From a virus: a DNA stretch of 64,000 nucleotides. Of this stretch, positions 26,913-55,280 are shown piece by piece. Within the stretch, counting starts at the first letter, position 1. The number at the start of each line of letters is the position of its first letter. The stretch covers positions 1-64,000 of the IMG/VR virus record IMGVR_UViG_3300025921_000697, one strand, 5' to 3'. Below the pieces are notes generated by a model, which was not told where the DNA came from, did not search any database, and worked only from the letters and a program-made list of their open reading frames with translations. Both the position numbers and the translations under genes were made by a program.

Positions 26913-26937
26913 AAATTAATCAAAAAAAACAGAAAAA

Positions 26938-33161: not shown

Positions 33162-33187
33162 AAAAGTAATTTATTTAATTACTTTTA
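33162..33187 (+). promoter_or_regulatory. Late control palindrome, copy 1
   Basis: Perfect 10-bp arms AAAAGTAATT and AATTACTTTT flank TATTT. The right arm contains TACTTTTA, a -7-like box (TAnnTTTG), while no TTTG is found 19 nt upstream. It lies 17 bp before the ATG of 33203. Copy 2 (45671) is its exact reverse complement. Confidence 0.6.
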
Positions 33188-33202
33188 TTCTAAAATTAAA
33201 AA

Positions 33203-34105
33203 ATGGAAAATTCTTTTAAACCTGATTATGTGTTCATAATCGAAACGCTGCAAACAGCAAAAGCCGGAATTGAATCAGTTACCAACCCGGAAATTCAGAT
33301 ACTTGTTACCCGGCTAAGGCTGGACCTGACAAAACATATTAACTTTTTAAAAGTCAGAATAGGTGATGCTCCTGATGCAGAATCCAGGCCGGCCAGAGAG
33401 CCGCTTAGAAAGATCTTCGGCATAGTCGTGCTGAATGATCATGGCCAGGCTATAAACCCTCAGCCAATCAAAACAACCCCGCGGGAATTGGAGATGGAAG
33501 AACTGAAGCAGAAGGTGGAGGACATTTACGGAAAGTTTGCAATCACAGAATCAGACCAACTTCTTGACACGCTCAGTGATATCGAAATCAGAGGTGTGGC
33601 AAAAAAAGCAGGATTACCGGTTACGGATAAAACGCCCAAAAGAATTGATATTTCTTTCATCGAAAAGATCAAGGAGGCAATTGTCAAACAACACTTAGCA
33701 GGTAATTTGGTTGTAGATGAATTGAATGATAAAATCACAGGCGGAGAAGGAAACAATGATGGAGATGATCTGGGAAAAGATGATCCGGATAATAAAGATG
33801 ATCCGGATAATAAAGATCAAAAATTTCTGGATTCACTGGATGCAGAAAAGATCAACGATGAAAACAAAAAAGTGTCAGATGAAGAAGGCGATGATCATGC
33901 ACAGGTAAATGGCAATCTTAAAATGTTGGACGAACTTTCTGCCCTGACAAACGCTGCAATTCTGGAAGCTTATGAAGAGAACCAAATTAAAGAATTTGCC
34001 ATGATGGCCAATCTTGAGGTAACTGACAAAACCAAAATCGACAGCAAATTTATCTCTCAATTGAAAGAAGCAATCAAAACACTGCATGCAGGTAACGATC
34101 AATGA
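33203..34105 (+). CDS. Acidic protein with two SAP/HeH-like repeats
   Basis: A 300-residue protein. A helical N-terminus is followed by a repeat near residues 115-155 (SDIEIRGVAKKAGLPVTDKT, then FIEKIKEAI) and a second near 255-298 (QIKEFAMMANLEVTDKTKID, then FISQLKEAI). The linker is acidic, with a tandem DDPDNK from an 18-bp DNA duplication near 33779-33814. The repeats resemble LEM/SAP/HeH-type nucleic-acid-binding helices. It is the first gene of the late region after terminase; it could be a head-associated or DNA-binding protein. Confidence 0.5.
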   Translation: MENSFKPDYVFIIETLQTAKAGIESVTNPEIQILVTRLRLDLTKHINFLKVRIGDAPDAESRPAREPLRKIFGIVVLNDHGQAINPQPIKTTPRELEMEELKQKVEDIYGKFAITESDQLLDTLSDIEIRGVAKKAGLPVTDKTPKRIDISFIEKIKEAIVKQHLAGNLVVDELNDKITGGEGNNDGDDLGKDDPDNKDDPDNKDQKFLDSLDAEKINDENKKVSDEEGDDHAQVNGNLKMLDELSALTNAAILEAYEENQIKEFAMMANLEVTDKTKIDSKFISQLKEAIKTLHAGNDQ

Positions 34106-34769
34106 TATTCAGTTTGATATTCCATTTGACACAGAACTGATTAAATTATCTGACTTTCTCGAGTGGCATAATCAATACGGTAAAAAACTAAACGAAGAGT
34201 TGAAACAGATCCTTGACGATAAAGATTTAAAGGATGTTGATAAAATGGTCCGATTGGAAGATTACCTGGACCGGGAAGCGCTATGCTGGTTTTGCTTCTG
34301 GACAAAAACAGATGAAGAGGAAGCAAGTAAACAACCAGGTATGGTTCAATTTCTTGATCGTTACCGTGTTTTAAAAACGCTTCTCAATGAGAACAATTAT
34401 GAATTTCCATATGAAACAGAGTGGCAGGGCGAACAATGGCAGATTGAAGCATTTACCTTGACCCCGGCAAGCGAAATGAATTTCAATGAAATCATCACTT
34501 CAAAAGAAGTAATGCGCCAGGTGTATAAGATCGGTGAAGACAATTGGACCGGACTCCCCTATCTGTGTTGTGTTTATTTCCGCAAGAAAGGTGAAGCATT
34601 TGAAGATTCAATGATTCACGAAGGAAGTGAACGAATGGAGTTGATGAATAGTTTACCACTGAAGCACGCGCTCGCTGTTGCTTTTTTTTTGAACATCTGT
34701 GTAAATATTTGGAGCAAAACTTTAGTGTCTTCTCAAGACGAAGTGGAGGAGACCGCAAGGCTGAACTGA
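34086..34769 (+). CDS. Putative tail-assembly chaperone, short form
   Basis: A 227-residue protein (TINDIQFDIPFDTELIKLSD, REALCWFCFWTKTDEEEASK, LTPASEMNFNEIITSKEVMR). Near its end (34682-34690) it crosses nine T residues, giving the slippery heptamer T-TTT-TTT in the reading frame. Ribosomes that do not slip end at 34769 after 26 more codons; those that slip -1 make a 292-residue product ending at 34963. This short/long pair is the hallmark of lambda G/GT-type tail chaperones. It lies 11 kb from the tape measure gene, farther than usual, so an alternative role is possible. Confidence 0.6.
   Translation: MQVTINDIQFDIPFDTELIKLSDFLEWHNQYGKKLNEELKQILDDKDLKDVDKMVRLEDYLDREALCWFCFWTKTDEEEASKQPGMVQFLDRYRVLKTLLNENNYEFPYETEWQGEQWQIEAFTLTPASEMNFNEIITSKEVMRQVYKIGEDNWTGLPYLCCVYFRKKGEAFEDSMIHEGSERMELMNSLPLKHALAVAFFLNICVNIWSKTLVSSQDEVEETARLN
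34682..34690 (+). promoter_or_regulatory. Slippery T9 sequence for -1 frameshifting
   Basis: Nine consecutive T between gct-gt-tgc and gaac. Zero-frame codons are GCT-TTT-TTT-TTG; one step back gives TTT-GAA. Homopolymeric T-TTT-TTT is a classical efficient -1 site. Confidence 0.6.
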
Positions 34770-34963
34770 TAGCATTCTATGAAGAGTGGGGCTGGGTAAA
34801 CTTTCTCAGTGCGATGGCCGAGACAAAGATTTTTGATATACCCGGAAGAGGACTTGACAGTATTGAGTGTGCAAAAATCGCGAAAGCATTTAACGTTTTG
34901 ATCTACGCCAGCCAGAGAAAAGATTATGCAATTGCGGAGTATGAAGCTTATAAAATCAAATAG
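34688..34963 (+). CDS. -1 frameshift extension of the tail-assembly chaperone
   Basis: The -1 frame from the T-run reads FEHLCKYLEQNFSVFSRRSG, then ELIAFYEEWGWVNFLSAMAE and ends at 34963. Taken alone this frame has only a TTG start (34709) and would begin in mid-helix, whereas the fused sequence continues the helix smoothly. I interpret it as the C-terminal part (about 91 residues) of the long form. It could instead be the result of a one-base T deletion in one gene. Confidence 0.6.
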   Translation, partial: FEHLCKYLEQNFSVFSRRSGGDRKAELIAFYEEWGWVNFLSAMAETKIFDIPGRGLDSIECAKIAKAFNVLIYASQRKDYAIAEYEAYKIK

Positions 34964-34990
34964 ATCATCATAAAGAAATCTTACAGAAAA

Positions 34991-35755
34991 ATGAAAAAAC
35001 AAGCTATAATAATGAATACGGTTTTGATTTTGGCGGTAGTTTCAGTAGTAATATCTGCTTATTGCATTTTCTTCGGAATATTTAATCAGATAGTGGTAAA
35101 GTGTCTTGCAGTTGTAGGGAGTATTCTTTTGGCATTTATTGCCGTTTTTTTTTATAGCAATTCAAAATACAATAAGTTACCGATTGCAATTATTCTTTGT
35201 CTTTTCTCCTTTTCATCATTTGCGCAAAATACCGATTCTGCTCTTGAGGCTGGAACTAAAAAGGCGACACAAGAAATGGTTCGATTAAAGGAACAAGGCA
35301 TACGTGAAATAAACAAATGGACGCTTCCTCCGCACATGTTGAAAGCGACAGTTAATGAATTTTCAATTAAACCGTTGATAGGCAAGAAAGATATTTTGAT
35401 CTATGCGATGCAGTTTGTCTCCGGTGCAGCAGACGGTATGAATCAGGCTCTTGTTTATCATCATGCCCTCGCTGGCCATTCTTTCTGGGATTACAATACC
35501 AGTTGGAAAAGAAAATATGTTGATTACGATAAAGGAGATACGCGGGCGGCTTTTCCCGGGGCTAAAACATGGCTTGTAGGAATAACGGATGGAAATCATT
35601 TAACAAGAATGATAAACAGATCTTTCTCCTTAGGGAGTGTGATGATTGCTATGAATGAGAGTAACAGCTGGGTAGAAATTTTCAAAAAAATTATAATCTG
35701 CTCACTGATCAACCGGGCTGGATTTGTCCTAATGTATGATCACATTTTAAAATAA
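34991..35755 (+). CDS. Membrane protein with a second, internal signal-like segment
   Basis: A 254-residue protein with two transmembrane segments (about 6-28, IMNTVLILAVVSVVISAYCI; 33-55, VVKCLAVVGSILLAFIAVFF) followed by a third hydrophobic stretch LPIAIILCLFSFSSFAQ (62-78) that looks exactly like a signal peptide with a SFAQ cleavage site. The remainder is probably periplasmic or outer-membrane: FVSGAADGMNQALVYHHALA, GHSFWDYNTSWKRKYVDYDK. The build resembles that of the protein at 62644. Function unknown. Confidence 0.5.
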   Translation: MKKQAIIMNTVLILAVVSVVISAYCIFFGIFNQIVVKCLAVVGSILLAFIAVFFYSNSKYNKLPIAIILCLFSFSSFAQNTDSALEAGTKKATQEMVRLKEQGIREINKWTLPPHMLKATVNEFSIKPLIGKKDILIYAMQFVSGAADGMNQALVYHHALAGHSFWDYNTSWKRKYVDYDKGDTRAAFPGAKTWLVGITDGNHLTRMINRSFSLGSVMIAMNESNSWVEIFKKIIICSLINRAGFVLMYDHILK

Positions 35756-35792
35756 AAAACATAGAAAATTAAATTTTACTAAAGTGAATGCC

Positions 35793-36077
35793 ATGATACA
35801 CATTTTTAAAACTAAAAACGGACAGTTCTGCGTGGTGACCAAAGCAAATAACGGCGAAATACTCAATGTTTCTGAAACCTTCACACAGAAACAAAATGCC
35901 TGGAAAAATATTGGAGCCGCTGCCGACAGTTTTGGTTCGAAAAAAGTTTTAGTTCAGGATGATTGTTTGAAGATAAAGTCAAAGGTATATGTGTGTCGTA
36001 TAGGAGATAATTTGAAAATGAATATAGCTGAGTCATGCATAGTGAATGCTGAGCCAAGGCATGTAAGCAAAAAATAG
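35793..36077 (+). CDS. DUF1508/YegP-like small protein
   Basis: A 94-residue protein from ATG 35793 (a GTG at 35784 is the alternative). IHIFKTKNGQFCVVTKANNG followed by EILNVSETFTQKQNAWKNIG has the YegP layout, a duplicated beta-hairpin-helix unit of unknown function, here in a single copy. Confidence is moderate. It precedes a 150-bp stretch in which I see nothing, and then the tRNA-Met. Confidence 0.45.
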   Translation: MIHIFKTKNGQFCVVTKANNGEILNVSETFTQKQNAWKNIGAAADSFGSKKVLVQDDCLKIKSKVYVCRIGDNLKMNIAESCIVNAEPRHVSKK

Positions 36078-36227
36078 TTCTTTACTCATCCATAAGCATC
36101 TGCTCGAATAAGCAGGCCGATATAAGCTGGTCACGTAGTTTATAATTGACTTGATACAACCAGAAAACTTTTTAGGGTTGCTGCGAACTAAGGCAGAAGG
36201 CTTTTGGGAAAATTTAAAATGAAAAAT

Positions 36228-36299
36228 CGCGTCGTAGAGCAGCGGTAGCTCGCTGGGCTCATAACCCGGAGGCCGCAGGTTCGAGTCCTGCCGACGCAA
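36228..36299 (+). tRNA. Initiator-type tRNA-Met(CAT)
   Basis: Cloverleaf: acceptor CGCGTCG/CGACGCA, D-arm GAGC-AGCGGTA-GCTC, anticodon stem CTGGG/CCCGG with loop CTCATAA (anticodon CAT), variable AGGCC, T-arm GCAGG-TTCGAGT-CCTGC, A73. It has the three marks of bacterial initiator tRNA: a C1xA72 mismatch, three consecutive G-C pairs in the anticodon stem and the A11-T24 pair in the D stem. No CCA is encoded. This is a phage-borne initiator tRNA, not an elongator. Confidence 0.8.
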
Positions 36300-36317
36300 C
36301 ATAAAACCATAGAGAAA

Positions 36318-36407
36318 GGTTGATGCTGAAATTAAGATAAGAGATTAGGTAAACGGATTAGCTAACCAGGAACCGAAATTGATTATCCTAACAAGTAGGC
36401 ATCAACC
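36318..36407 (+). ncRNA. Structured RNA candidate beside the tRNA
   Basis: A perfect 9-bp closing stem GGTTGATGC (36318-36326) and GCATCAACC (36399-36407) encloses about 72 nt that include TTAGG/CCTAA and a TTAGCTAA palindrome. No ORF of note. It is not a tRNA: there is no T-arm and no anticodon arm. It lies 19 bp after the initiator tRNA and may be released with it. Confidence 0.4.
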
Positions 36408-36431
36408 AAAGAAATTTTAAAATTGAATTAT

Positions 36432-36836
36432 ATGTTTGAAGAACAATTATCCGAAGAACAATTACAGAAAAAAATTGATGCTCTTAAAGCAGAATTAGAG
36501 CCATTAGAAAAACTGCAAAGGGAAAACTATATAAAAAAGGAAGATGAAGTTCAGCTAAAACTAAAGAGATGTAAAAGCAAACAAGACAAATTTGAATTGG
36601 AAGATCTTGTTTTTGCTGCTTTTTCTCGCTGTAATTGCGGAGCAGGTTTAGCATATCCCAAACATATAGGTATTCATGGGTACTGGATGTGCTCAGATAT
36701 TTTATTAGGAAGGGCAATTCCACATGGACAAGAAGGATCAAAAGAACATAGTGGTGAATTTCCATTTGCATTCTATGAAATAAAAAGTGATACTCAGCCT
36801 TCAGCACAGGGAAATACAACTCGTCCAAAAGAATAA
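36432..36836 (+). CDS. Coiled-coil protein with CxC patch
   Basis: About 134 residues from ATG 36432 (TTG 36423 is possible). Residues 1-55 are a charged coiled coil (EEQLQKKIDALKAELEPLEK); the middle has RCNCGAGLAYPKHIGIHGYW, which resembles a partial zinc site, and the C-terminus is polar. No family recognised. Confidence 0.5.
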   Translation: MFEEQLSEEQLQKKIDALKAELEPLEKLQRENYIKKEDEVQLKLKRCKSKQDKFELEDLVFAAFSRCNCGAGLAYPKHIGIHGYWMCSDILLGRAIPHGQEGSKEHSGEFPFAFYEIKSDTQPSAQGNTTRPKE

Positions 36837-36841
36837 AACCA

Positions 36842-37480
36842 ATGATCAAAGTAAATCTATATACAAAAAATGGAGAGCTGGTAATAACAGTAATGACACC
36901 TCCGTTTAACCCGATGCCTGATTGCATAGCGTGGGGCAGTCGCTTTTTCTTCAAAAACCCGGACTTTAAAAAGAAAGACGAATCCGGTTATTACGAAGGT
37001 CTTATCGTTGCTGCAATCAATGTTGTTACCCGGGAAACATCAATAAAAAGAGAGACAGACAAGAAAGAGTATGGAAATGATGATCTTCTGTTTGGCCTCC
37101 CAAATGATCTTGACGAAGCGGTAGAAACATTTCTTGAATTCTATAGCAAGTCAGAAGATTTTCAGCTGATTGATAATTGCACGGAGGACAAATTTCTCTG
37201 TGTCACTCATCATGCATCCGGACAGTTTATAAGAAACAGCTGGTATTTGTGGTGGCATGAAGATCATGGATCCGATTCATGGCCCAAGTCAAAACCGCAG
37301 CTGGTGCAGTGGTTTAATAACCTTGGCATTTATCACGCCGATGATATGAGTTCGATCATTATCAGATCCGCATACCGGCGTCATCACAAACAAGCAATAT
37401 TAATTGAAAAACAGGTAAGCCATTACAGAAAGTTTTGGAAAGAACAAGGCTTTGAAGATGGCATTTATAAACCCAGATAA
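36842..37480 (+). CDS. Hypothetical protein
   Basis: A 212-residue alpha/beta protein (TPPFNPMPDCIAWGSRFFFK, NSWYLWWHEDHGSDSWPKSK, YHADDMSSIIIRSAYRRHHK). It starts 5 bp after its neighbour. No family recognised. Confidence 0.5.
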   Translation: MIKVNLYTKNGELVITVMTPPFNPMPDCIAWGSRFFFKNPDFKKKDESGYYEGLIVAAINVVTRETSIKRETDKKEYGNDDLLFGLPNDLDEAVETFLEFYSKSEDFQLIDNCTEDKFLCVTHHASGQFIRNSWYLWWHEDHGSDSWPKSKPQLVQWFNNLGIYHADDMSSIIIRSAYRRHHKQAILIEKQVSHYRKFWKEQGFEDGIYKPR

Positions 37481-37483
37481 ATT

Positions 37484-37945
37484 ATGAAAATTCAAATAAC
37501 ACAACAGCAGCAACAAAGATTCCCTGATCTGCTCACAAAGGAACTGGAAAAAGTAACCATGTTCTGGGACAATGAATTGAGATTATGGCATCCGGTGGCC
37601 CTGGAAGCTTTACTCTTCGCCTCTGCTATTAGTTTGCAAATACCACAGGAAACCTTCATCCATTTGTTCGATACCGAAAAAAACGGCATTAATATGAATG
37701 TGGTGATGAGACTTTGCAACAACCTGGAAGCGCGAACAGCGATGGAGATGAATTACACGGCTAAAGACTGGGGTCATTTTCTCGTTACGAATGCAAACGT
37801 CGGCTATCGTTGGAATGCATTACAGCAGCCAATCCGGGAGAAGATCTTTAAACAGTTTGAGGAAGAGAATAATCAGGCCAGTATTCGGGCAAAGATCATG
37901 GGAAAAGGTCCAGGCGGTATGAAATTAGTAAAAGGAGAAGCATGA
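37484..37945 (+). CDS. Hypothetical protein
   Basis: A 153-residue helical protein (QQRFPDLLTKELEKVTMFWD, LEARTAMEMNYTAKDWGHFL). It overlaps the next gene by 4 bp. Position in the late region points to a virion or assembly protein, but no family is evident. Confidence 0.5.
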   Translation: MKIQITQQQQQRFPDLLTKELEKVTMFWDNELRLWHPVALEALLFASAISLQIPQETFIHLFDTEKNGINMNVVMRLCNNLEARTAMEMNYTAKDWGHFLVTNANVGYRWNALQQPIREKIFKQFEEENNQASIRAKIMGKGPGGMKLVKGEA

Positions 37946-38352
37946 TGATACAGACAATTTTCATAACAGCGTTGATCATTCTTTTTTTCCACGTGTGTAC
38001 GTGGCCGGGGATGGTTTTCTCTTTCGTATCGGAAGCTTTAAAAAACGTCCCAGCTTATTTAAAAAAACCTCTCTTTGATTGTCCGATTTGTATGTGTCCT
38101 TGGTGGGGGCCGACAGTCGTTGCATGCGGAATAGTGGGCAATGTTTGGCACGTTGACAATGTTTGGCAACTCGCGATCATTGTTGCATCAGCTGCCGGCA
38201 TTAATACGGTTTTGATCTATGTGATCAACCAAGGCAAGCAGCTGGCAAAAACTTTAAACGAATCTGAATGCAATTGTACCAGCAAGGAAAAGATAAGAGA
38301 CGAAAGATTAAAACGATTGGAAAGATTTGTTGATCCTTTAAAGTCAAGATAA
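37942..38352 (+). CDS. Membrane protein with CPICMCPWWG motif
   Basis: A 136-residue protein with transmembrane segments at about 3-18 (TIFITALIILFFHVCTW), 55-75 (GPTVVACGIVGNVWHV) and 78-98 (LAIIVASAAGINTVLIYVI). CPICMCPWWG (about 50-59) and CNC later could bind metal or form disulfides; the CP-C.CPWW pattern recalls DUF1360-type membrane proteins. Function unknown. One-base overlap with the next gene. Confidence 0.5.
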   Translation: MMIQTIFITALIILFFHVCTWPGMVFSFVSEALKNVPAYLKKPLFDCPICMCPWWGPTVVACGIVGNVWHVDNVWQLAIIVASAAGINTVLIYVINQGKQLAKTLNESECNCTSKEKIRDERLKRLERFVDPLKSR

Positions 38353-38546
38353 TGGAAAAAACAGTCGAAAAAACGGCAAGTCAAATGATTATGGAATTGC
38401 AGGACAAGAACGCTAAGCTCAGATTGGGATTAGGAAAGCTATTGAAGATTTGCGAAAATAATAAGATGCACATGAAAAGTGAAGTGTGGGACCAGCAGAT
38501 TGGATTTGCAAAGCAAATGTTCATAGAAACAGATCCAAATAAGTAG
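38352..38546 (+). CDS. Small helical protein
   Basis: A 64-residue, wholly helical protein (KTASQMIMELQDKNAKLRLG, WDQQIGFAKQMFIETDPNK). Overlaps the membrane gene by one base. No family recognised. Confidence 0.5.
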   Translation: MEKTVEKTASQMIMELQDKNAKLRLGLGKLLKICENNKMHMKSEVWDQQIGFAKQMFIETDPNK

Positions 38547-38565
38547 TTCAAAAAATAAATTAAAA

Positions 38566-39207
38566 ATGCAGGAACTCTTTTTATATGATGAAGAAAACGG
38601 CCTATTCAAGCAAATACTGAAAAAATCTTCAGTACTGAAGGGAAGCTATCATGTTTCTCCAAATCAGGGCAACGACCTGAACACATCCAACCTGGAAACT
38701 TATATAAAAGATCCGGCAAAAGGATTGATTGATTTTAAAAATTATCCTATCTGCGTTTGCTTCACGCCCAGAAGCAGGATAATTCCTATCAATGGTCAGG
38801 ATTTCGAGCAGTTCACATTTAATCTCTATTGGCTAACAACCACCTTCAGGAATAGTGACAATTCTGTAAAAATGAGAGACAAAGACACCGGCCAATCTGC
38901 ACATCATATTTGGTATGACTGGCAAGACATGAAGTCATGCGCAATGAATTTTTACAGTGTGCTTAACCAGGTCATCAAGTCCAAAAATGTTATGGTCGAT
39001 AGTGTCGCAGTTCCTTTGCGGTCCATGATAAACCTGGATAAAGGAAGTGTGATTTATAACCGCCTGTCAAAATTTTATAATGATTCTTTATCCGGAATAA
39101 GCCAGGCCTTTACGATGACTATGCAACCGCTTGAATGTGATCAGACAGAGTACGCTGATATAAATAGTATTACGATACCCTCACCAACTATACACGAAGA
39201 TGTTTGA
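38566..39207 (+). CDS. Virion-region hypothetical protein
   Basis: A 213-residue protein (GSYHVSPNQGNDLNTSNLET, PICVCFTPRSRIIPINGQDF, EQFTFNLYWLTTTFRNSDNS) with mixed fold. It lies in the neck/tail-completion neighbourhood and overlaps the next gene by 8 bp. Probably structural; no family named. Confidence 0.5.
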   Translation: MQELFLYDEENGLFKQILKKSSVLKGSYHVSPNQGNDLNTSNLETYIKDPAKGLIDFKNYPICVCFTPRSRIIPINGQDFEQFTFNLYWLTTTFRNSDNSVKMRDKDTGQSAHHIWYDWQDMKSCAMNFYSVLNQVIKSKNVMVDSVAVPLRSMINLDKGSVIYNRLSKFYNDSLSGISQAFTMTMQPLECDQTEYADINSITIPSPTIHEDV

Positions 39208-39472
39208 TAATAATAAACTTGAATTGAATTATGCCAAGCTGGTTCCGAATGAAATCAGAAAGATGATCATTGAAAAAAAAATGATTGGCACTGCCAGTGA
39301 ATTTTCAGATCAAAAGGGCACACCTATGGAATTCCTTTTTGATGTATATGAAGAGTTTTTGGATCCGTCGCAAAATATAGGTCCATTCAGTTGCCCTAAA
39401 TGCCGGCTGGAAGTATTGAATGTTTTCCGGAAGCTTGAACCTTATTTTTTACAATTAAATTCAAATCAGTAA
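39200..39472 (+). CDS. Small zinc-ribbon-like protein
   Basis: A 90-residue protein (KLVPNEIRKMIIEKKMIGTA, EEFLDPSQNIGPFSCPKCRL). One CxxC pair is present near residue 68; it overlaps both neighbours. No family recognised. Confidence 0.45.
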   Translation: MFDNNKLELNYAKLVPNEIRKMIIEKKMIGTASEFSDQKGTPMEFLFDVYEEFLDPSQNIGPFSCPKCRLEVLNVFRKLEPYFLQLNSNQ

Positions 39473-39753
39473 TGGGAATCCTATATGGACCACCGCGTCC
39501 AGAGAAAGAAGATTTCTCAATCGCAGAAAAGGAATACCGGACTAAAAAAGAAGAAGTATTGAGCAGATTCAGAAAAGAATTTGTTGAAAAATTCTACCTA
39601 TATAGCCCTGAAATGTACGCGATAGTACAACTTCTTATTAATGATGCGGATCCTTACGCTTTAATTGAGCAACTTATTGAGCAACTTCACAAAGTACAAT
39701 ATCTTAACTTAAAACTGCTAAGAGAAGGAATCAGGTTACCACAACCACAATAA
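39472..39753 (+). CDS. Small helical late protein
   Basis: A 93-residue helical protein (YRTKKEEVLSRFRKEFVEKF, AIVQLLINDADPYALIEQLI). One-base overlap (TAATG) with the previous gene. No family recognised. Confidence 0.5.
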   Translation: MGILYGPPRPEKEDFSIAEKEYRTKKEEVLSRFRKEFVEKFYLYSPEMYAIVQLLINDADPYALIEQLIEQLHKVQYLNLKLLREGIRLPQPQ

Positions 39754-39759
39754 TAAACA

Positions 39760-40439: not shown

Positions 40440-40467
40440 ATCTTATTACAGTCAAAAAATAAAACCC

Positions 40468-42900: not shown

Positions 42901-42907
42901 AATAAGT

Positions 42908-42991: not shown

Positions 42992-43002
42992 ACTTGAAAA
43001 GA

Positions 43003-43287: not shown

Positions 43288-43294
43288 AAGTACA

Positions 43295-45646: not shown

Positions 45647-45670
45647 TAAATTAAATGGAAAAACGTTTGG

Positions 45671-45696
45671 AAAAGTAATTAAATAAATTACTTTTA
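45671..45696 (+). promoter_or_regulatory. Late control palindrome, copy 2
   Basis: Arms AAAAGTAATT and AATTACTTTT around AAATA; the sequence is the exact reverse complement of copy 1. It contains TACTTTTA at 45689-45696 and, 19 nt upstream, TTTG at 45666-45669, so here a full Bacteroidota promoter is visible. The tape measure ATG lies 25 bp downstream. Confidence 0.65.
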
Positions 45697-45719
45697 TTTA
45701 AAATTTCCCATTTTCCTAC

Positions 45720-48700
45720 ATGTCAGAGCCAATTATAAACCGCATTTATGACCTGAAAATCGCAGGTTATGATGATTCGATGGCCAAAGTGGAAGCGCTG
45801 ACAAACGCTTTCACGAAAATGGATGAGGTTAAGCGGAAATTAAATACGCAGCTTCAGGAAAAAGTCAATGCCGGTGACACGGATGCTGTCACACAACTCA
45901 CCAAAAAGATTGCCGATCTTGAAAACCAGATGGCAAACCTGAAAACTCAAAGAGATTCGGCTGCCAAGGAAGAGGCATTACTTGCTAAAGCAGAAAAGGA
46001 CCGTGCAGATGCCTTACTTAAAACTCAAAAAGCAGAGGAATCAGTTGCCAAAACAGAACAAATAAGAATAAACTCGACCATTGCACAGGAAAAGGAATTG
46101 GACCGGCAAATCGCTTTGGAAGAAAAGCAGGCTCAACAGCTGGCTAAAGAAAAAATATCCATCGACGCACTCGAAGGAAGTTACAACCGTCTGAAAGAAC
46201 AGCGCCTGCAACTGGAATCTTTCACTGCTAACAGCAATCCAGGTTCCACCTTCAATTTAAACGGAAGTCTGATCGGATATGATGAGGCGATTGCCAAAAT
46301 CAAGGAGATCAAGGGACAGGAGCAGCAATACCTGGATCAGCTAAAAATTGAAAAAGAAAGTCAGGCATCGATCATCAAAGGTCTTCAGGAAAAAATTACC
46401 CAGATAAAAATTGAGCGGCTGGAACTTGAAAAGGTTGTCAGCACATCACAAGCTGGTGAGTCTGTAACTTTTAAGGGTCAAACGATTAATTATACCGAAG
46501 CTATTGCTCAAATCAATGAACTCAAAGCAGCTGAGACACAATTAACGCAAGATCTTTCCTCACAAGGAGTTCAGACAAAAGAGCTTTCAAATAATTATTA
46601 CGGATTACTGGCAGCTCAGAGAGAAGCGATTAATTTATACCGCAATACTGATTTTAATTCTCCCATCTTCCAGGAAGTAAAATTGCAGGCCCAAGAAGCG
46701 ACAGACAAGGTACAGGCATTTAACCGGTCACTTTCTCCGGATGGTACCTTGGTTGGTGAATATAAAACAGGTATTATCAATGCCTTTAAAAACCTTGGCC
46801 TGACTGATGTTTTAAAAAATCAGCGAGCACAATTGCAGGCTGAGTTTGATCAATTAAAAAATCAAAATGAATCACTGGTTTCTGAATATTGGAAAGCAGG
46901 ATCAGCCGGCACGACAGCATTCAGGGATGTGGAAGCACAACTCAGAAGAAATGTTGAACAACAGGAACAAATCAGATCTTCTTTAAATAACCTGGATAAC
47001 TCTTTACGAAATACCGGGTCCGTGGGTGCGCAAATTTCTGAAGGTATCGCAAGCGGCTTCAAAAATGTCAAATCGCAGATCGGCCAGGTACTTGTTGCTT
47101 ACGTTGGCTTCCAGGCCATTTTTCAGGGAGCGCTTAATCTTTTGCATACGAATACAGAGTTAAGCGACAGTATCGCTCAATTGCAGATTTATATTCATGG
47201 TACTACAGAGGAAGCAAATAATTTGGTTGATGTCTTAAAAAAGATACCTACACGAACATCCTTGCCAAATCTTGTGGATATAGCTACAGCAGTTGCGCAA
47301 AAAGGAGTTGCAAAAGAAGAGATCGGTGAAGTAACACAGGCGTTTGACCAGCTCTTTACGGCACTGGGCAAAGATGCCGGTGATCCGCACCAGGGAGTGC
47401 TTACAATTGCGAAATTGATCAGTATTTTCCACGATGATCATGAAGTAACCGCTCAGAGAGTCAGGGAATTGGGAAATGCAATGTTTACCCTGCAAAGTTC
47501 AGGCCCGGTGTCAGGTGAATTTTTGCAATCATATGCTGAAAGAGTCGGCGCAGTAAGAAGTATAACCGGTGCGACTATCCCTCAAATTTTGGGTATGGGA
47601 GCCGCTTATCAGCAATTAGGCCAACGCGAAGAAGTTGCCGGCAGCGCCACAAGCATTTTACTCACCAAAATGATTTCAAATGTAGAGAAGTTTGCGTCAG
47701 TATCTGGCATCAGCGTGGAAAAACTTCGTGCAGTTATAAAAGCAAATCCGTTTGAAGGACTTTTGGAAGTTGCTGAAAAACTGAAAGAAAAAGGCAATGA
47801 TGGTGTAGAGGCAATGGTTAAACTGGTTGGTGATTTGGGTGTGAATAATGTGAGAGCAAAGGGCGCATTCTCTGAGTTGATCAATAATGCAGATTTGTTC
47901 AGGGCAAAAATGGAACTTGCAGGTAGTGCGCTTAGTTCCACATCAAGCTTGACAACCGCTTTCGAAGAAAAACAAAAAACGTTTGGCGCCACTATTGCCG
48001 AAATAGGAAAAGAACTCCAGATCGCTTTCAGTAATGAAAACTTTTTAAAAGTTTTGAATGGCGTATCGCTGGTATTACTAACAATCATCCGGGTGATTAC
48101 CGCTATTCCTTTTTCAGTGATAGTCGGAGGAATTACGGCCATGTCTGCCGCCTGGTTATTTTATAAAGGAAATCTGACCTTAACCCGTCTGGAACAAATG
48201 GCAAACAATGAAGCCACGCTTCTTGGGTATGTTCGTTTAAATATTCTAAAATCAGGTTTATTCGGTGCGGCCGCGGCAGAACAGGCGAGAGCAGCATCCA
48301 TCCAGAGAACGAATGCAGCGGTGGTTTTAAAAATAGCCTCCATCAATTCAGAAATAGCCGCTGAAAATGGCGCTATTGCTGCCCTGGAAGCAAGGGTGGC
48401 AGCTGATGCGGAACAATCAGTTGTTTTAGAAGGAGAAATTACTGCAAGACGTGCTCATGTACTGGCATTAGAAAGTGAGGTTGCTGCTCTCGACAGTGCA
48501 ACGCTTGCCACCGATGGTTTAAATGTTGCGACAAAAGCTTCTCCGCTTGGAATAATTCTCGGTATAATTGCTTTGGTTGTACCGGCAATTAGTGCCTTTG
48601 GAAAATCCACCAACAATGCAACTAAAGAAATTTCAGAACAAAATAAACAGCTTCGCCTGAATGAGCAAATTCAGGGAGAGGTTGCAAAAAGTGTGTCTGA

Positions 48701-51410
48701 TAGTACAGCATCACAAATTTCCCATGTTACCCAGTTAATAGCCGTTTTACAAGATCACACGAGTAAAACTTACCTCTTAAAAAAAGCATACGATGCATTG
48801 ATCAGTATTGCCCCAGAATTTGCAGGTGTATATGATGGTGAAAAAGTAAACCTGGAAAAACTCAATGAACTGTATCCGATCTACATTGCCAATCTGAAAG
48901 CTGTTTCAGAGGCAAAGGCACTCGCATCCATCCGGGATAAATATGCTCAGGAACAGGCTGATGCTGAAGTCGCTGCATTCCAAGCGAAGCTAAAAGCAGA
49001 TCAGGAGCAAAAAGAGAATGCTGAGATAGAAAAAAATAATAAAAAACTGGTGGCTACTCCGGCCTTCGGAAGCCCAGGAATCGGAGCATCAACCGCTGCC
49101 CTTCCTCTTGGTAAAACTTCAGATGTAGCACAGAAAAATTTTGAACAAAAACAAGCAGAGGTAAAAAAAGCAGCTGAACAAACCGCAGCCCTCGATGCTT
49201 ATCTGGCCGGCGATTTGAAGAGCAGGCAAAAAAGAATAGCAGATCTTACTGCTGAGCTATCAAAACTGAAGAAAGGCACTGATGAATACAATAAAATATA
49301 CACTGAGCTTGAAACACAGAAAAAAAGTTTGGAAGTTGTTTCCGGAATTCCCGATGCCGCTCCGCAGGCACCTGGAATCGGCGAAAGAACTATTGCTGAA
49401 ATAAAAGCAGACTTAAAAAAAGCGAACTCAGATTTTGAACATGCCATAAACGGTTCACCTGAGAAGGAGGAATTGAAAAAGAAGATAGCAGCATTGAAGC
49501 AGGAGTTAATAGATGCCGGTGGAGCGAAGCCGGCTCCCTACAAAGGCGCTCGTCTTTCCGGAGTTCAAAAAGATTTGTTTAAGGATATTGATGCGCAGAC
49601 CGATCAGGAGATCACTGAAGAAAAATTAAAATTCAAGCAACTGCAGGAAGATGAAGAGACTTATTTGACAAATGTGCTCAAGATCAATACCGATGCCGCT
49701 AATAAGAAAATTGCTGCACTCGATGGTAGTAATGCTGAGGAAAGAAAACAAATAGCGCAACAAAAACTCTTCATCATTGAGCAGGAAGAAGAAACGAATA
49801 AAAAGTTATTCGACCTGCAGAAAAAACAATTAGATGCAAATTTCGCCAGCATTATAAATCAGGCTAAACTCGCGTTAGAAAAAACGAATGAAGATCCTAC
49901 AAAAACGGATCAGGAGAAAAGGAAGGCAAAGGCCGATTTCCTGGCCGCCGAATATCTTCTTGAAGCAACATATGATTACCAGGTTGATCAGCTCGAAACA
50001 AAATACAATCAGCGGTCAGTTGAGAATGCACAAAAAAGAAAAGATGCATTGCTACAGATTTCTCATGATATCAGTAAGACAGACCTTGAAATCACGGTTG
50101 GCACTTTGCAGGCTATTGATGATTCCACAGGAAAAGCTGTAGCTGAAATAAAGTTGAAGTATGATAAGCTGATTCAGGATATTTTGAAAAGCAATCAAAG
50201 TCTTCAGAATAAGACGTCAGCAATAAAAATTCTTACTACCACTGAAGACGTGGAAACCGGCGGGGTGCAATTGAAAGGAGATGTAGCAAAAGTTTTGGTA
50301 GCAAAGCAACTTTTGGATTTTGGACTGATTACAAAAAAACAATTTGAGGAAATATATGCCGCTGCAAATGAAGGCCAGAAAAAACTGAATAATGCTATCC
50401 AGGAAGGGAAAACCAGCATTACCTCTATGAGCGCCGTTTTGGAGAAATCCCTTGGGAAATTATTTGGCTTTGGAAAAGAGAGTGGCCAGGCGCAACTTTT
50501 GGCTCAGACCATTACCGATGGGTTCGGAACTGCGAAAAATGCAATGGATTCTTATTTTGAGGCGGAACAGAATAATATCGAGCATAGCAATCAAATCACA
50601 CAGCAAAGGTTAGATATTGAATTGCAACAGGCGAAATCCAAAGCACAAAGCCAGGCTGAGCAGGATTCACTCGATCGGCAATTCCAGGCCAAAAAGGAGG
50701 CAGCGGATAAGGCAGCATTTGAGAAAAATAAAAAGCTTCAGATCGAACAGGCAAAAATTAACCTGGCAATTCAATTATCAAATTTGGCCGTGATTGCTTT
50801 TGCTCCAAACCCGTTGAACATTGCTACTTTGGGAGTCGCGGGCACAATCATGTACGCAATTCAGGCGGCGCTTGCCTTCGCCAATTATGCCCTCAATGTA
50901 AGTAAGATCAATTCGGCTCAATTTGCGGCAGCTGGTGGTGGTAAAGTTCCAAAACTTCCAAACGGAAAAGTTACAAATCCATCAAATATTCCTACACAGC
51001 CAAACGGCGACAACGTTTTGGCAACGGTAAAAACCGGTGAAGTGCTTCTGAATGAAGAGCAACAGCGGAAAGCTGGTGGTGACGAATTCTTTAGAAGGCT
51101 TGGTGTACCTGGATTTGCAGATGGCGGAAGGATTCAGGCTTTTGCGTCCGGAGGTTATGCCGGCATAGGAAGTGAAGAGTTGGGAGGATCATTAAAGGCT
51201 CCTATTAATCCACGATCTTTTTTGTCAGGCAATACATCAAATCTTTTTGAAGAAAACAGCCGTCAGATATCTGCATTAGCAGGACTGATTGAAGAAACAG
51301 GCCGGCAAGTTCATCAAAGAATTGACAAATTACAGGTTGTACTGGACCCGGCAAAGGTTGACCGGGCAAACAACAAAACTAAAAAAGCTACTGCAATAGG
51401 AAAATTATGA
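45720..51410 (+). CDS. Tail tape measure protein
   Basis: A 1896-residue protein. Coiled coils fill the first 320 residues (NAFTKMDEVKRKLNTQLQEK; LKAAETQLTQDLSSQGVQTK) and again about 1300-1530. A TMP-like region (VGFQAIFQGALNLLHTNTEL; MGAAYQQLGQREEVAGSATS) covers 450-700. Hydrophobic segments lie near 785-815 (VSLVLLTIIRVITAIPFSVI), 940-960 (LGIILGIIALVVPAISAF) and 1685-1720 (NIATLGVAGTIMYAIQAALA), then a Gly-rich tail with GFADGGRIQAFASGGYAGIG. Tape length suggests a long siphovirus tail (about 280 nm at 0.15 nm per residue, a rule-of-thumb value). Confidence 0.9.
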   Translation: MSEPIINRIYDLKIAGYDDSMAKVEALTNAFTKMDEVKRKLNTQLQEKVNAGDTDAVTQLTKKIADLENQMANLKTQRDSAAKEEALLAKAEKDRADALLKTQKAEESVAKTEQIRINSTIAQEKELDRQIALEEKQAQQLAKEKISIDALEGSYNRLKEQRLQLESFTANSNPGSTFNLNGSLIGYDEAIAKIKEIKGQEQQYLDQLKIEKESQASIIKGLQEKITQIKIERLELEKVVSTSQAGESVTFKGQTINYTEAIAQINELKAAETQLTQDLSSQGVQTKELSNNYYGLLAAQREAINLYRNTDFNSPIFQEVKLQAQEATDKVQAFNRSLSPDGTLVGEYKTGIINAFKNLGLTDVLKNQRAQLQAEFDQLKNQNESLVSEYWKAGSAGTTAFRDVEAQLRRNVEQQEQIRSSLNNLDNSLRNTGSVGAQISEGIASGFKNVKSQIGQVLVAYVGFQAIFQGALNLLHTNTELSDSIAQLQIYIHGTTEEANNLVDVLKKIPTRTSLPNLVDIATAVAQKGVAKEEIGEVTQAFDQLFTALGKDAGDPHQGVLTIAKLISIFHDDHEVTAQRVRELGNAMFTLQSSGPVSGEFLQSYAERVGAVRSITGATIPQILGMGAAYQQLGQREEVAGSATSILLTKMISNVEKFASVSGISVEKLRAVIKANPFEGLLEVAEKLKEKGNDGVEAMVKLVGDLGVNNVRAKGAFSELINNADLFRAKMELAGSALSSTSSLTTAFEEKQKTFGATIAEIGKELQIAFSNENFLKVLNGVSLVLLTIIRVITAIPFSVIVGGITAMSAAWLFYKGNLTLTRLEQMANNEATLLGYVRLNILKSGLFGAAAAEQARAASIQRTNAAVVLKIASINSEIAAENGAIAALEARVAADAEQSVVLEGEITARRAHVLALESEVAALDSATLATDGLNVATKASPLGIILGIIALVVPAISAFGKSTNNATKEISEQNKQLRLNEQIQGEVAKSVSDSTASQISHVTQLIAVLQDHTSKTYLLKKAYDALISIAPEFAGVYDGEKVNLEKLNELYPIYIANLKAVSEAKALASIRDKYAQEQADAEVAAFQAKLKADQEQKENAEIEKNNKKLVATPAFGSPGIGASTAALPLGKTSDVAQKNFEQKQAEVKKAAEQTAALDAYLAGDLKSRQKRIADLTAELSKLKKGTDEYNKIYTELETQKKSLEVVSGIPDAAPQAPGIGERTIAEIKADLKKANSDFEHAINGSPEKEELKKKIAALKQELIDAGGAKPAPYKGARLSGVQKDLFKDIDAQTDQEITEEKLKFKQLQEDEETYLTNVLKINTDAANKKIAALDGSNAEERKQIAQQKLFIIEQEEETNKKLFDLQKKQLDANFASIINQAKLALEKTNEDPTKTDQEKRKAKADFLAAEYLLEATYDYQVDQLETKYNQRSVENAQKRKDALLQISHDISKTDLEITVGTLQAIDDSTGKAVAEIKLKYDKLIQDILKSNQSLQNKTSAIKILTTTEDVETGGVQLKGDVAKVLVAKQLLDFGLITKKQFEEIYAAANEGQKKLNNAIQEGKTSITSMSAVLEKSLGKLFGFGKESGQAQLLAQTITDGFGTAKNAMDSYFEAEQNNIEHSNQITQQRLDIELQQAKSKAQSQAEQDSLDRQFQAKKEAADKAAFEKNKKLQIEQAKINLAIQLSNLAVIAFAPNPLNIATLGVAGTIMYAIQAALAFANYALNVSKINSAQFAAAGGGKVPKLPNGKVTNPSNIPTQPNGDNVLATVKTGEVLLNEEQQRKAGGDEFFRRLGVPGFADGGRIQAFASGGYAGIGSEELGGSLKAPINPRSFLSGNTSNLFEENSRQISALAGLIEETGRQVHQRIDKLQVVLDPAKVDRANNKTKKATAIGKL

Positions 51411-51886
51411 ACCTTCGACTTTCATATCAAACGCAGGACCCTGAAATTATTCGGGAAAACTTTAGGAAAATAAAAGAAGCTCTGGATGTTCCCGCAGGAA
51501 CTGCCGGCGCCGTGAAATTTAAGGGTACCTGGAACGCTAATACGAATATCATTACCAGTTCGGATGTTACATTGAATGGTAATCCTATCCCGGCAGCCGG
51601 CACCGGAAATGAGGGATATTATTTTGTAGTTGATACTGATGGAACTACAGACATTGCAGGAATTGCAGATTGGAAAGCAACTGACTGGATTGTTTCGACC
51701 GGAGCAACTTGGATAAAAGTCAATAATGCGGGTGGTGGTGGTGCGGCTATAGACGACACTACAACTTCTTTAACAACTGTTTATTCATCACAAAAAACAC
51801 AGGATGAAATAGATGTTCTTCAGGGAGAAATTGATGCTGTTAACCCAATAGGAAACAAACTTTTTAACTATTATAATTTTATTTAA
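51407..51886 (+). CDS. Tail fibre-like protein
   Basis: A 159-residue protein. GAVKFKGTWNANTNIITSSD, then EGYYFVVDTDGTTDIAGIAD and WKATDWIVSTGATWIKVNN form a small repeat domain common in phage tail fibres and baseplate proteins (F.GTW.A..N motif). A helical N-terminus (DPEIIRENFRKIKEAL) may attach to the tail. It overlaps the tape measure gene by 4 bp, in the place of receptor-binding or distal tail proteins. Confidence 0.6.
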   Translation: MNLRLSYQTQDPEIIRENFRKIKEALDVPAGTAGAVKFKGTWNANTNIITSSDVTLNGNPIPAAGTGNEGYYFVVDTDGTTDIAGIADWKATDWIVSTGATWIKVNNAGGGGAAIDDTTTSLTTVYSSQKTQDEIDVLQGEIDAVNPIGNKLFNYYNFI

Positions 51887-51888
51887 TC

Positions 51889-52116
51889 ATGGAAGAAGTA
51901 GATTACACAGACCTTATTAATGAAAACATTAAACAGGCCGTCTTAAACAATTACATGGCGACGGATGCCTATACTACAGCGTTCAATGCGGTATTACCTT
52001 CGCTGGGTTTAACAATAGAGAATTTCAACAAGTACTTGAATGAAGCTGTAGGACAAGGCATAGCCCCCGAAACTGCTATGAACTGTTATATGTTAACCCT
52101 TACAATGAAATCATAA
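51889..52116 (+). CDS. Small late protein
   Basis: A 75-residue acidic helical protein (EEVDYTDLINENIKQAVLNN, SLGLTIENFNKYLNEAVGQG). It lies 2 bp after the fibre-like gene and 1 bp before the next. No family recognised. Confidence 0.5.
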   Translation: MEEVDYTDLINENIKQAVLNNYMATDAYTTAFNAVLPSLGLTIENFNKYLNEAVGQGIAPETAMNCYMLTLTMKS

Positions 52117-52117
52117 A

Positions 52118-52537
52118 ATGTCAGCGAATACAGTACCTATATTTTTGATCAAACCGCGTTTAGAGTCTTGTAGAATCTCCGCTGCTAACGTGAACAGAGA
52201 CGGCTCCGGGACGCTGGTACCTTTATGGACTGCTGGAGCAAACGGAAGCCGTATTGATTACGTCATCTTTACTAACGCTTCGCCAGGTATTGGGTCGGCA
52301 GTTGCTAAAGTTTGGAGGATCTTTATATCAGATACATCCGGACTTAATCCAAGGCTGATAAATGAACAAAGCATTGCCGCAGCAACTTCATCTGCCACAG
52401 TACAAGGACAAACATCAACTGTAACCATGACCAATGGTAGATTCCTTCAGCCAGGGCAAATATTGTATGTAACTCAGTCTGTTTACTCTACCACAGCAGA
52501 CCAGACCGATGTTTTTGCGCAGGGAGGCGATTACTAA
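52118..52537 (+). CDS. Virion protein, beta-sandwich type
   Basis: A 139-residue beta-rich protein (SRIDYVIFTNASPGIGSAVA, KVWRIFISDTSGLNPRLINE, RFLQPGQILYVTQSVYSTTA). The pattern is that of small tail-associated proteins. One-base overlap with the next gene. Confidence 0.55.
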   Translation: MSANTVPIFLIKPRLESCRISAANVNRDGSGTLVPLWTAGANGSRIDYVIFTNASPGIGSAVAKVWRIFISDTSGLNPRLINEQSIAAATSSATVQGQTSTVTMTNGRFLQPGQILYVTQSVYSTTADQTDVFAQGGDY

Positions 52538-54276
52538 TGTACGGCTTTCCAACACAGCTATATCCAGTTCCACAAGGATTGTTCAGGGATCAAAGCGCTG
52601 GCTTTGGTGCGAGCATTAACAACAATATTTTTTATTCAATTAGAGATGGAAACTGGAGTGATCCAATGATGTGGGAAGTCGTAGGCGATAAAATTCTTGG
52701 AAGAACGCCAACGCAATATGATGATGTCTATGTAAGACATACAGTTAATCTGGATTCAGCAGAGCAAGCAACTCATAACTGTAATAATCTTTTTGTTTCA
52801 GGAACTCTAATCTTTACTTTTTATCAGACGACGTTAAATGTTTACGGTGATATAAAATGTACAGGATTGATTGATTTTAGCTTTGGAGGTTATTCCATCT
52901 GTGCGTTAAACTTTTATGGACGTTTAATAAACTCTAACTTGGATGACAATCATTTCTTGGCTGGTAATAATTGGGTAAGATACCAATATGTGGGCGAATG
53001 GATGGAAATTTTGCCTGTGACTTATTATAAGTTATCCTGTTCAGGATTTCAATATATTACCAAAGATCTTATAGTACTTAACAACTTTATGTTTGGCCAA
53101 TTCGACATGAGAAATAATTATTCATTCTTTGGTAATATACAAATAGACAATGCCAGGCACTTGTATAAATACAATGGAGGAACTATAATTATTGCCGGTA
53201 TTACTTCAACTTCAGGAGGATCAATTTTTACATTTGACGGAAACCCGGATATAGAGTTTAGAGGCAGTGAAGTCATGTTGTTAGGGACAAATTCAAACTT
53301 TGGTACAGGTGTTATTAAATTTAATACCAACAACCAAACTATGAGTCAGATGAGTCCTATATTCAACACCAATTTAATCATAGAAGATATTGTATTCACA
53401 ATTGGCAACGGATCTATCCAATTGGGTTCAGGAGCTAATTTCAACGGCATATCTGGTGCAAGTCAACTCGTGATAGCAAGCGGAGGGACATTGATTTTCA
53501 ACTGGGATGCGCCTTATCCCATGAGTACGGGTGTTTTTAATCACATGGCTAATGCTGGAAGTGCTATAGGTTATGGCATGACTACCAACTACACAATACC
53601 TTTGACAACTTTTCAAGGTCTTCAGCTTATAAACGGAGCTACTAAATCATTACAATCCGGCTCAGTAGTAAATGGAAATCTTGTAGCTACCATAACAGGT
53701 GTTGCTATATTAGGGAATGTTACTTTAATAGGACTTGTAAATATCAATGGCGCTAATTTTACATTAAACGGATATACAGCAGAGCTTAGAGGCGGATTTA
53801 CGAGTGGTTCAAGACCTCCCACTACTATATCTGCTGGCACTATACTATTTACAACCAACAGCCAAAATATATACAGCAATGTGATAAACGCAAACATATT
53901 AATATCCGGAGCAATCACAATAACTACTGTATATGGAGGTGAAAACATATCAATAACCTTAAAAGGCACGTTAAATGGAGATAATTCCTCAAGCAAACTT
54001 GTCAATACTCCAGGAGGTACATTTAACTACCAAAATGCTCAACAGCCAATGCTTACAGGGATTTTGGATTGCAGTACTAACGCAAACATTTTCAAATACA
54101 ATATGGCAGGAAATCAAGATGTGACAGGAACAACTTATAGAACTCTTGAATTTGGAGGCTCAGGCGTTAAGAAATTAATGGGAAACGTGGTAGTAAATGT
54201 TTCAGCAGGCGGTTCATGGAGCATCACAGGAACGGCAACTATTGATTATAATGGATTTACGATAACAACGATTTAA
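52537..54276 (+). CDS. Tail spike/fibre with parallel beta-helix
   Basis: A 579-residue protein. Near residue 35 it has the G8-like opening SIRDGNWSDPMMWEVVGDKI with DDVYVRHTVNLDSAEQATHN. The remainder is a run of short strands rich in Asn and Gly (LFVSGTLIFTFYQTTLNVYG, GGTIIIAGITSTSGGSIFTF, VVNGNLVATITGVAILGNVT), the signature of a right-handed beta-helix. Such proteins bind or degrade surface polysaccharides. The C-terminus ends in a beta strand. It is the probable receptor-binding protein. Confidence 0.65.
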   Translation: MYGFPTQLYPVPQGLFRDQSAGFGASINNNIFYSIRDGNWSDPMMWEVVGDKILGRTPTQYDDVYVRHTVNLDSAEQATHNCNNLFVSGTLIFTFYQTTLNVYGDIKCTGLIDFSFGGYSICALNFYGRLINSNLDDNHFLAGNNWVRYQYVGEWMEILPVTYYKLSCSGFQYITKDLIVLNNFMFGQFDMRNNYSFFGNIQIDNARHLYKYNGGTIIIAGITSTSGGSIFTFDGNPDIEFRGSEVMLLGTNSNFGTGVIKFNTNNQTMSQMSPIFNTNLIIEDIVFTIGNGSIQLGSGANFNGISGASQLVIASGGTLIFNWDAPYPMSTGVFNHMANAGSAIGYGMTTNYTIPLTTFQGLQLINGATKSLQSGSVVNGNLVATITGVAILGNVTLIGLVNINGANFTLNGYTAELRGGFTSGSRPPTTISAGTILFTTNSQNIYSNVINANILISGAITITTVYGGENISITLKGTLNGDNSSSKLVNTPGGTFNYQNAQQPMLTGILDCSTNANIFKYNMAGNQDVTGTTYRTLEFGGSGVKKLMGNVVVNVSAGGSWSITGTATIDYNGFTITTI

Positions 54277-54278
54277 AA

Positions 54279-54929
54279 ATGGCACTATCAGACATCATAG
54301 CTACAATCATTTCCAGATCAAAGGTGATCGAGATCTGCGATTCACTTCATGACGTGCAAAATTCAACAACAGAAGAGGAAGTAATTGAGGCCGGCTTGCC
54401 TCTGCTTGTATATTCCTACCAGGCAGGAATTATTGATGATAGTTTAATTGCCGATTTTACAGAATCAACATTAAACTCATACAACATTTTTACAACCGGT
54501 ACTTTCACGATCACCAACCCGGATAGTGAAGTTTACATCTTGAAAAATGCAATTGTAAGTCTTACTATTTCCGGTACCTGGAATGGCAAAATAAATGTGA
54601 TGGGAGCGGCCACGCTGAATTTAACTATCGGAGACACTTGTTTTGCAACTGTAAAAGTTTATGATAATGGAATTGCCAACGTGACAATTAATGATGATGC
54701 AATGGTAACGCTTGCTTGCAAGGAAAACAGCAACGTCACAGCGATCGTTAACACGAACGGAATTTTTCATCTGACTGCTTACAACTTCAGCGTTTGCGGC
54801 GTGACTACCAACAACAACAGCTATGCGAAAGCCACGCTTTTTCATAACAGTTCTATAACACCAGCAAACTATGACACTTCGACACTCCTTATAAATCTTT
54901 ATCAAAATGCACAAAGCATTTTATCATAA
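54279..54929 (+). CDS. Fibre protein, beta-solenoid type
   Basis: A 216-residue protein. After a helical N-terminus (RSKVIEICDSLHDVQNSTTE) it becomes a beta-solenoid (NIFTTGTFTITNPDSEVYIL, IVSLTISGTWNGKINVMGAA, TLNLTIGDTCFATVKVYDNG). Likely a partner or tail-tip piece of the preceding spike. Stop overlaps the next gene by one base. Confidence 0.6.
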   Translation: MALSDIIATIISRSKVIEICDSLHDVQNSTTEEEVIEAGLPLLVYSYQAGIIDDSLIADFTESTLNSYNIFTTGTFTITNPDSEVYILKNAIVSLTISGTWNGKINVMGAATLNLTIGDTCFATVKVYDNGIANVTINDDAMVTLACKENSNVTAIVNTNGIFHLTAYNFSVCGVTTNNNSYAKATLFHNSSITPANYDTSTLLINLYQNAQSILS

Positions 54930-55174
54930 TGGAAAACCAAAGGAGAAATACCGAACTTGACCGCCAGCTTCAGGAATTAGCATCTGAAGATTGGGAGAAA
55001 TTTGTAAAGCTGATGGGAGAAAAAAACATCATGGCTGCTAAAATTTGCATTCTCCGTGCAAAAGGAAAATCCTACAACCAAATTGCGCTTCGCGTCGGCA
55101 CCACCCAAAAAGTTGTCAGAAACCGAAGCCATAAATGTGAATGCACTGTAACGCCCGCCCAGCAATCACTTTAA
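54929..55174 (+). CDS. Small HTH protein at the end of the fibre operon
   Basis: An 81-residue protein with a helical N-terminus and a sigma-r4-like HTH (MAAKICILRAKGKSYNQIAL, RVGTTQKVVRNRSHKCEC). It lies in the late region just upstream of the third late palindrome, so it may be a DNA-binding regulator of late genes. That is inference from position. Confidence 0.55.
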   Translation: MENQRRNTELDRQLQELASEDWEKFVKLMGEKNIMAAKICILRAKGKSYNQIALRVGTTQKVVRNRSHKCECTVTPAQQSL

Positions 55175-55218
55175 TCAATTTCTGTAAAGAGAACACAATC
55201 TTTTTTATTTAAAAGGAG

Positions 55219-55233
55219 TGCCCGAAGCGGGCA
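55219..55233. other. GC-rich hairpin TGCCCG-AAG-CGGGCA
   Basis: A perfect 6-bp stem with 3-nt loop, 45 bp after the HTH gene and 22 bp before late palindrome copy 3. No plus-strand T-tract follows; on the minus strand an A/T-rich stretch does. It may end transcription or stabilise the fibre message. Confidence 0.45.
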
Positions 55234-55254
55234 ATGTTACTCGTGAAATAGTAA

Positions 55255-55280
55255 AAAAGTAATTGAATAAATTACATTTT
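55255..55280 (+). promoter_or_regulatory. Late control palindrome, copy 3
   Basis: Arms AAAAGTAATT and AATTACATTT around GAATA; one mismatch relative to copies 1 and 2. The right arm contains TACATTTT (55273-55280), -7-like. It lies 9 bp before the protease ATG. Confidence 0.6.

Follow-up and report, generated by a model that had tools for sequence, protein, structure and literature searches.

A palindrome at late promoters of a temperate Bacteroidota phage is a candidate dispersed operator of a small HTH protein from the lysogeny module

A palindrome with the 17-bp core GTAATT-N5-AATTAC is located at promoters of the phage analysed here, recurs at the late units of unrelated phages, and covaries with the recognition helix of a small HTH protein encoded in the lysogeny module. 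The palindrome is probably a dispersed operator of this protein, through which late promoters would be blocked. The analysis thus provides a concrete site, a concrete candidate protein and a recognition-helix code. If this reading is true, prophages use a small protein dedicated to the direct silencing of their late genes, and late promoters could be recognised in many uncultured phages from the sequence.

The stretch of DNA analysed, referred to as the window, comprises 64,000 nucleotides and is part of a parent record of 76,287 bp of the phage, which is designated G000. A 50-bp sequence in tRNA-Arg near the left end of the window is identical to positions 71660-71709, and this identity shows that the record represents an integrated prophage. 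An intact tRNA-Arg adjoins the integrase gene, and the host ung gene is present at the left end of the record. The length of the integrated prophage is about 71 kb. The genes for tRNA-Gly (29849-29919) and tRNA-Met (36228-36300) are phage-borne, the latter being located inside the late region. The attachment core, the palindrome copies and the genes behind them are as follows:

741..790, no strand: attL core, 50 bp, in tRNA-Arg
33162..33186, plus strand: candidate operator copy 1, AAAAGTAATT-TATTT-AATTACTTTT, exact; right arm forms the -7-like TACTTTTA
33203..34105, plus strand: 300-aa gene of unknown function that opens the unit behind copy 1
45671..45695, plus strand: candidate operator copy 2, exact; -7-like TACTTTTA
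45720..51410, plus strand: 1896-aa ORF behind copy 2, tape-measure-like by size and position
55255..55279, plus strand: candidate operator copy 3, 17-bp core unchanged and a single outer-arm mismatch; -7-like TACATTTT
55288..56472, plus strand: Clp-type head maturation protease, following copy 3
70298-70322 of the parent record, outside the window: candidate operator copy 4, exact

The consensus of the repeat is AAAAGTAATT-N5-AATTACTTTT, and its 17-bp core is present in four copies in G000. A preliminary description of the window had reported the palindromes starting at 33162, 45671 and 55255, the third with one mismatch, and had placed them just upstream of unit starts. Both statements were confirmed, since the copies end 16 nt before the ATG at 33203, 24 nt before that of the tape-measure-sized ORF and 8 nt before that of the head maturation protease. 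The 5-nt spacers of copies 1 and 2 are reverse complements of each other. With up to three mismatches, 0.05 matches were expected by chance, and none of 100 shuffles reached three. When the full phage was searched for further copies, the fourth, exact one was found at 70298, downstream of the integrase gene and upstream of a minus-strand 118-aa ORF (69912-70268). This ORF is not an obvious late gene, so that the earlier view that all copies precede late units does not extend to copy 4. The next-best match in the whole parent record has five mismatches; a match at 63447 was dropped, as it is located in coding sequence. The 300-aa gene behind copy 1 shares 37% local identity with a gene of another phage contig, G003. 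Another element, about 90 bp long and present in three copies, contains AGTAAA-N6-TTTACT and was identified at 25036-25124 and 26826-26914 of the window and at about 65908-65990 of the record (L005). The first two of its copies are 83% identical, each copy is located a short way upstream of a gene, and the element has the appearance of a promoter or regulatory family in its own right.

The same core was identified in a second virus contig of 45.4 kb, G001, where it occurs seven times. In a scan of all hexamer inverted repeats, for which no motif was supplied, GTAATT-N5-AATTAC was ranked top in both G000 and G001. The sites in G001 are the following:

5143: before the small HTH gene
13291: before a tail gene
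27710: before a capsid-like gene
32400 and 32418: before the portal-side gene
32558: further site
34648: before the terminase small subunit gene

G000 and G001 have no recognisable structural gene in common, and only two shared proteins were identified with confidence, the HTH protein (G001 5228-5518, 50%) and the integrase (35%). The gene order of both is alike and consists of repressor, middle gene, small HTH gene, attachment site and integrase; the middle gene codes for a DUF4468 protein in G000, and its counterpart in G001 is without a significant family match. A similar gene order was found in Riemerella phage RAP44. The search beyond this phage revealed the same core at the late units of unrelated phages.

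In G000, the lysogeny/integration module includes the following minus-strand genes:

863..1165, minus strand: 100-aa lambda-repressor-like HTH protein, proposed binder of the palindrome
1155..1679, minus strand: DUF4468 protein, overlapping the gene for the 100-aa HTH protein
1735..2220, minus strand: XRE-family (HTH_3) regulator, likely prophage repressor

The gene for the 100-aa protein is located between the repressor genes and attP/integrase. The AlphaFold2 model of this protein, with a core pLDDT above 90, contains helices at residues 16-30, 37-44, 49-55, 63-73 and 77-81, and thus predicts a five-helix lambda-repressor-like (XRE) fold. The recognition helix of the model comprises residues 49-55, with K48 just before it, and opens with the sequence KQNIRNVK (residues 48-55). 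SinR, P22 c2 and lambda cI were identified as solved-structure matches with Z values of 6-7, which are common for the HTH fold and support the protein class rather than a function. For P0001 and P0002, used in a curated HTH profile test, there was no Pfam match; the matches obtained were to phrog_9710, the function of which is unknown, and, weakly, to PHROGs of transcriptional repressors. No site is present upstream of the HTH gene itself in G000. Among possible binders, the preliminary description had named a different HTH protein, encoded at 54929. That protein has no match in G001 and a weak one (24%) in a structural relative without sites, so that the 863-1165 protein is the better candidate.

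For the comparison of helix and site, 25 viral contigs with relatives of the HTH protein, including G001, were sorted by their recognition helix ahead of a whole-contig scan; this analysis was exploratory and not preregistered. The contigs with a KQN helix (G000, G001, G701, G702 and G709) contain 20 GTAAT-N7-ATTAC sites versus 0.83 expected, and 9 versus 0.43 remain when the discovery phages G000 and G001 are left out. In all other contigs with HTH relatives (1.12 Mb), 5 sites were found versus 4.3 expected. The GTAAT site thus covaries with the recognition helix of the small HTH protein, which is the sole G000 protein matched in every other KQN contig. G701, G702 and G709 have homologous late genes in common and are therefore not fully independent tests. 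In a later search of about 790 further genomes for additional HTH loci, the top palindrome family of G1374 (QN helix) consisted of four related GTAAT-type palindromes, including one exact GTAAT-N7-ATTAC; two GTAAT-type palindromes were present in G1328 (QN helix). At the two loci with other helices, G1427 and G871, no GTAAT-type palindrome was found.

Within the KQN contigs, the sites recur at corresponding genes. A site directly precedes the gene for the head maturation protease, or a gene probably homologous to it, in G000 (55259), G702 (28049) and G709 (54109), and the other site of G702 is located ahead of the terminase. In G701 (21854) and G709 (54701) a site is found beside the same small gene, and in G001 (34648) and G709 (31386) behind the same phrog_503 gene; one GTAAT site of G709 (63620) lies within coding sequence. 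Structural kinship was considered as the source of the sites and was rejected, since G003, with a terminase identity of 56%, has neither the palindrome nor the HTH protein. G709 (L255-L258) seems to hold the late modules of two phages side by side, one at 0-18 kb and the other at 30-64 kb, and the two modules differ in palindrome type.

An association by hitch-hiking was also considered, in which the palindrome would be the operator of another protein, such as the integrase, a CI-type repressor or a host regulator. The integrase is likewise common to G000, G001, G709 and, more distantly, G701, and isolated exact copies of the site exist in some host genomes. However, G702 has sites without a matching integrase, and in G717 the integrase (35%) goes together with another palindrome. 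No similarity exists between the CI-type proteins of G000 and G001, although the sites of the two are identical, and no site is present in the regions upstream of repressor genes, including that of the XRE-family gene at 1735..2220, where the GTAAT palindrome is absent. In the viral collection, the 14-base core gave mostly single chance matches, with a second copy in none of the 155 other loci (1.46 Mb). Genome matches to the 20-base form are isolated sites in varied phyla, and the eight Bacteroidota genomes with such a match all lacked the HTH protein. The covariation of site and helix also speaks against ownership by another protein, which is improbable.

For Bacteroidota, the sigma-A -7 box TAnnTTTG is located at -12 to -5 (PMC9723704). 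The overlap of the palindromes with -7-like boxes, as described earlier, was confirmed for the boxes TACTTTTA, TACTTTTA and TACATTTT; at all four copies of G000 the box is one base off TAnnTTTG, with the final G missing. When the box is taken at -12 to -5, the core spans about -26 to -10. It also proved correct that in the window only copy 2 has a TTTG at -33 (45666-45669, 19 bp upstream of its box), and the element is absent at three of the four copies in G000. Boxes without the final G, three of them without the -33 TTTG, point to possibly weak promoters which need help. Among the 20 sites of the KQN group, a perfect TAnnTTTG overlaps or abuts the right half at 10, versus a background of 1.25%. 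The centre of the palindrome relative to the -7 box varies, being at about -18, -21 or -24, and at 54109 of G709 the palindrome is located downstream of the -7 box TACATTTG, right before the ATG.

The location of the site on or beside the -7 box suggests that the bound HTH protein would block RNA polymerase. A dimer of the 863-1165 protein may bind GTAATT-N5-AATTAC and cover the -7 box of late promoters, by which the virion genes, including the head protease, would be kept silent during lysogeny or in the early phase of infection. The variable register and the site downstream of the -7 box favour repression by occlusion, since a polymerase-contacting protein would not easily tolerate them. Of the phage-specific late activator proposed in the preliminary description, the regulator at late unit starts is supported by the recurrence at the late units of unrelated phages, while the activating role is less favoured, as the register in which the site overlaps or adjoins the -7 box is not constant and one site follows the box.

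A role of the same protein and site in activating late promoters which lack a -33 element, by analogy to P1, is the main alternative to repression, though a rather unlikely one. P1 has palindromes at its late promoters, where an inverted repeat with its centre near -22 precedes a good -10 box. These promoters depend on Lpa and the host SspA, and their likeness to the present ones is that a good -10/-7 box adjoins an inverted repeat while the upstream element is missing. Lpa-dependent late promoters (PMC8201110) provide a precedent, and the position of the sites at late unit starts as well as the TTTG missing at three of four copies would agree with it. However, the site sequence is a different one, and the single fixed repeat position of the Lpa type was not found here, as the register differs between sites. 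The missing -33 TTTG was the strongest point for activation, but the element is also missing at most TAnnTTTG promoters without a palindrome in the same genomes, where it is present in 1 of 12, so that its absence says little; with 3 versus 12 promoters, this comparison is too small to decide the regulatory sign. Also, the 863-1165 gene is located in the lysogeny module and not in an early lytic operon.

A different palindrome is found in an activator-like position. As for other SPECIFICITIES, the palindrome TTATTTAGAATCATTCTAAATAA is present in contigs with QTVSK-like helices, and 18 copies of it in 11 flavophage-type contigs are separated by a near-fixed, activator-like distance of 12-14 bp from a downstream TACATTTG, which reads TATATTTG in one case. 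These copies precede a gene of about 220 aa in a terminase-small-subunit-like position and a large late gene, and the TTATTTAGAATCATTCTAAATAA-TACATTTG arrangement is a conserved late-promoter architecture of its own. It occurs at no more than two late units per phage, for example at L247 5079, L250-L252 and L262-L264. In many contigs, more copies of TTATTTAGAATCATTCTAAATAA were found directly before the repressor or HTH gene, without a TACATTTG box.

The proposed blocking of late promoters by the 863-1165 protein can be compared to several known repressor systems. Lambda, P22 and 434 resemble the present case in the five-helix HTH fold and in an operator that is a palindrome of 17 bp and overlaps promoters, but there the operators are clustered at early promoters, whereas here they are scattered singly at late ones. 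The operators of P1 C1 are asymmetric. They have been mapped (PMC8201110), and like the sites described here they are dispersed over the genome with several operons controlled, but they belong to the master repressor. The stoperators of mycobacteriophage L5 are dispersed operators of a temperate phage, and the likeness extends to many dispersed copies at promoters and intergenic gaps and to their binding by a lysogeny-region HTH protein (PMC9283540). However, the L5 sites are asymmetric 13-mers to which the immunity repressor itself binds as a monomer, whereas here the candidate binder is a separate 100-aa protein and the site is a palindrome of 17-25 bp in 4-7 copies, its near-perfect symmetry differing from the asymmetric, transcription-oriented L5 type. 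Dispersed operators as such are thus already known from L5 (PMC9283540) and P1 C1 (PMC8201110); new are the site, the candidate protein, its location in the lysogeny module and the covariation of helix and site in Bacteroidota phages. In the library searched, no paper on late-gene control in temperate Bacteroidota phages was found, which is not proof of absence.

A function of the palindrome in RNA, as a 5'-UTR hairpin or the transcript-processing site suggested in the preliminary description, is very improbable. Folding energies of -6.6 and -6.2 kcal/mol were obtained for copies 1 and 2, which is better than for shuffled sequences, but the stem is almost entirely A-U, and copy 3, which keeps the core and loses outer pairs, reaches a non-significant -3.7 kcal/mol. 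The arm sequence is conserved beyond pairing across unrelated phages, no compensatory change was seen, and with a -7 box in the right arm the palindrome itself would not be transcribed.

A further palindrome was identified in G717 (L259-L261), the HTH protein of which has another helix. Here, AAATACATA-N3-TATGTATTT is present four times, at 13802, 17279, 17369 and 35307, in three cases with a TATTTTTG box overlapping the right arm. These palindromes are found at a ParB/methyltransferase gene, the portal gene and a 599-aa gene. The TTATTTAGAATCATTCTAAATAA and G717 palindromes are a pattern parallel to the GTAAT sites; binding by the same protein is not claimed. It is an even question whether temperate Bacteroidota phages widely carry a second small regulator in the lysogeny module, the helix of which co-evolves with a phage-specific late-promoter palindrome. 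Such regulators might, with about equal chances for and against, constitute a modular switch for late genes that is distinct from the CI-type repressor and the specificities of which, of the GTAAT, TTTAGA and ATACATA type, can be exchanged. RAP44 was examined as a further candidate for the GTAAT family and was rejected, as it has a 40% HTH homologue adjoining the integrase, yet no GTAAT family. In RAP44 (L193), AACCCATTGATAAACAATGGGTT is present three times, at 13590, 31606 and 45316, one copy being located between the gene for the HTH homologue and the integrase gene.
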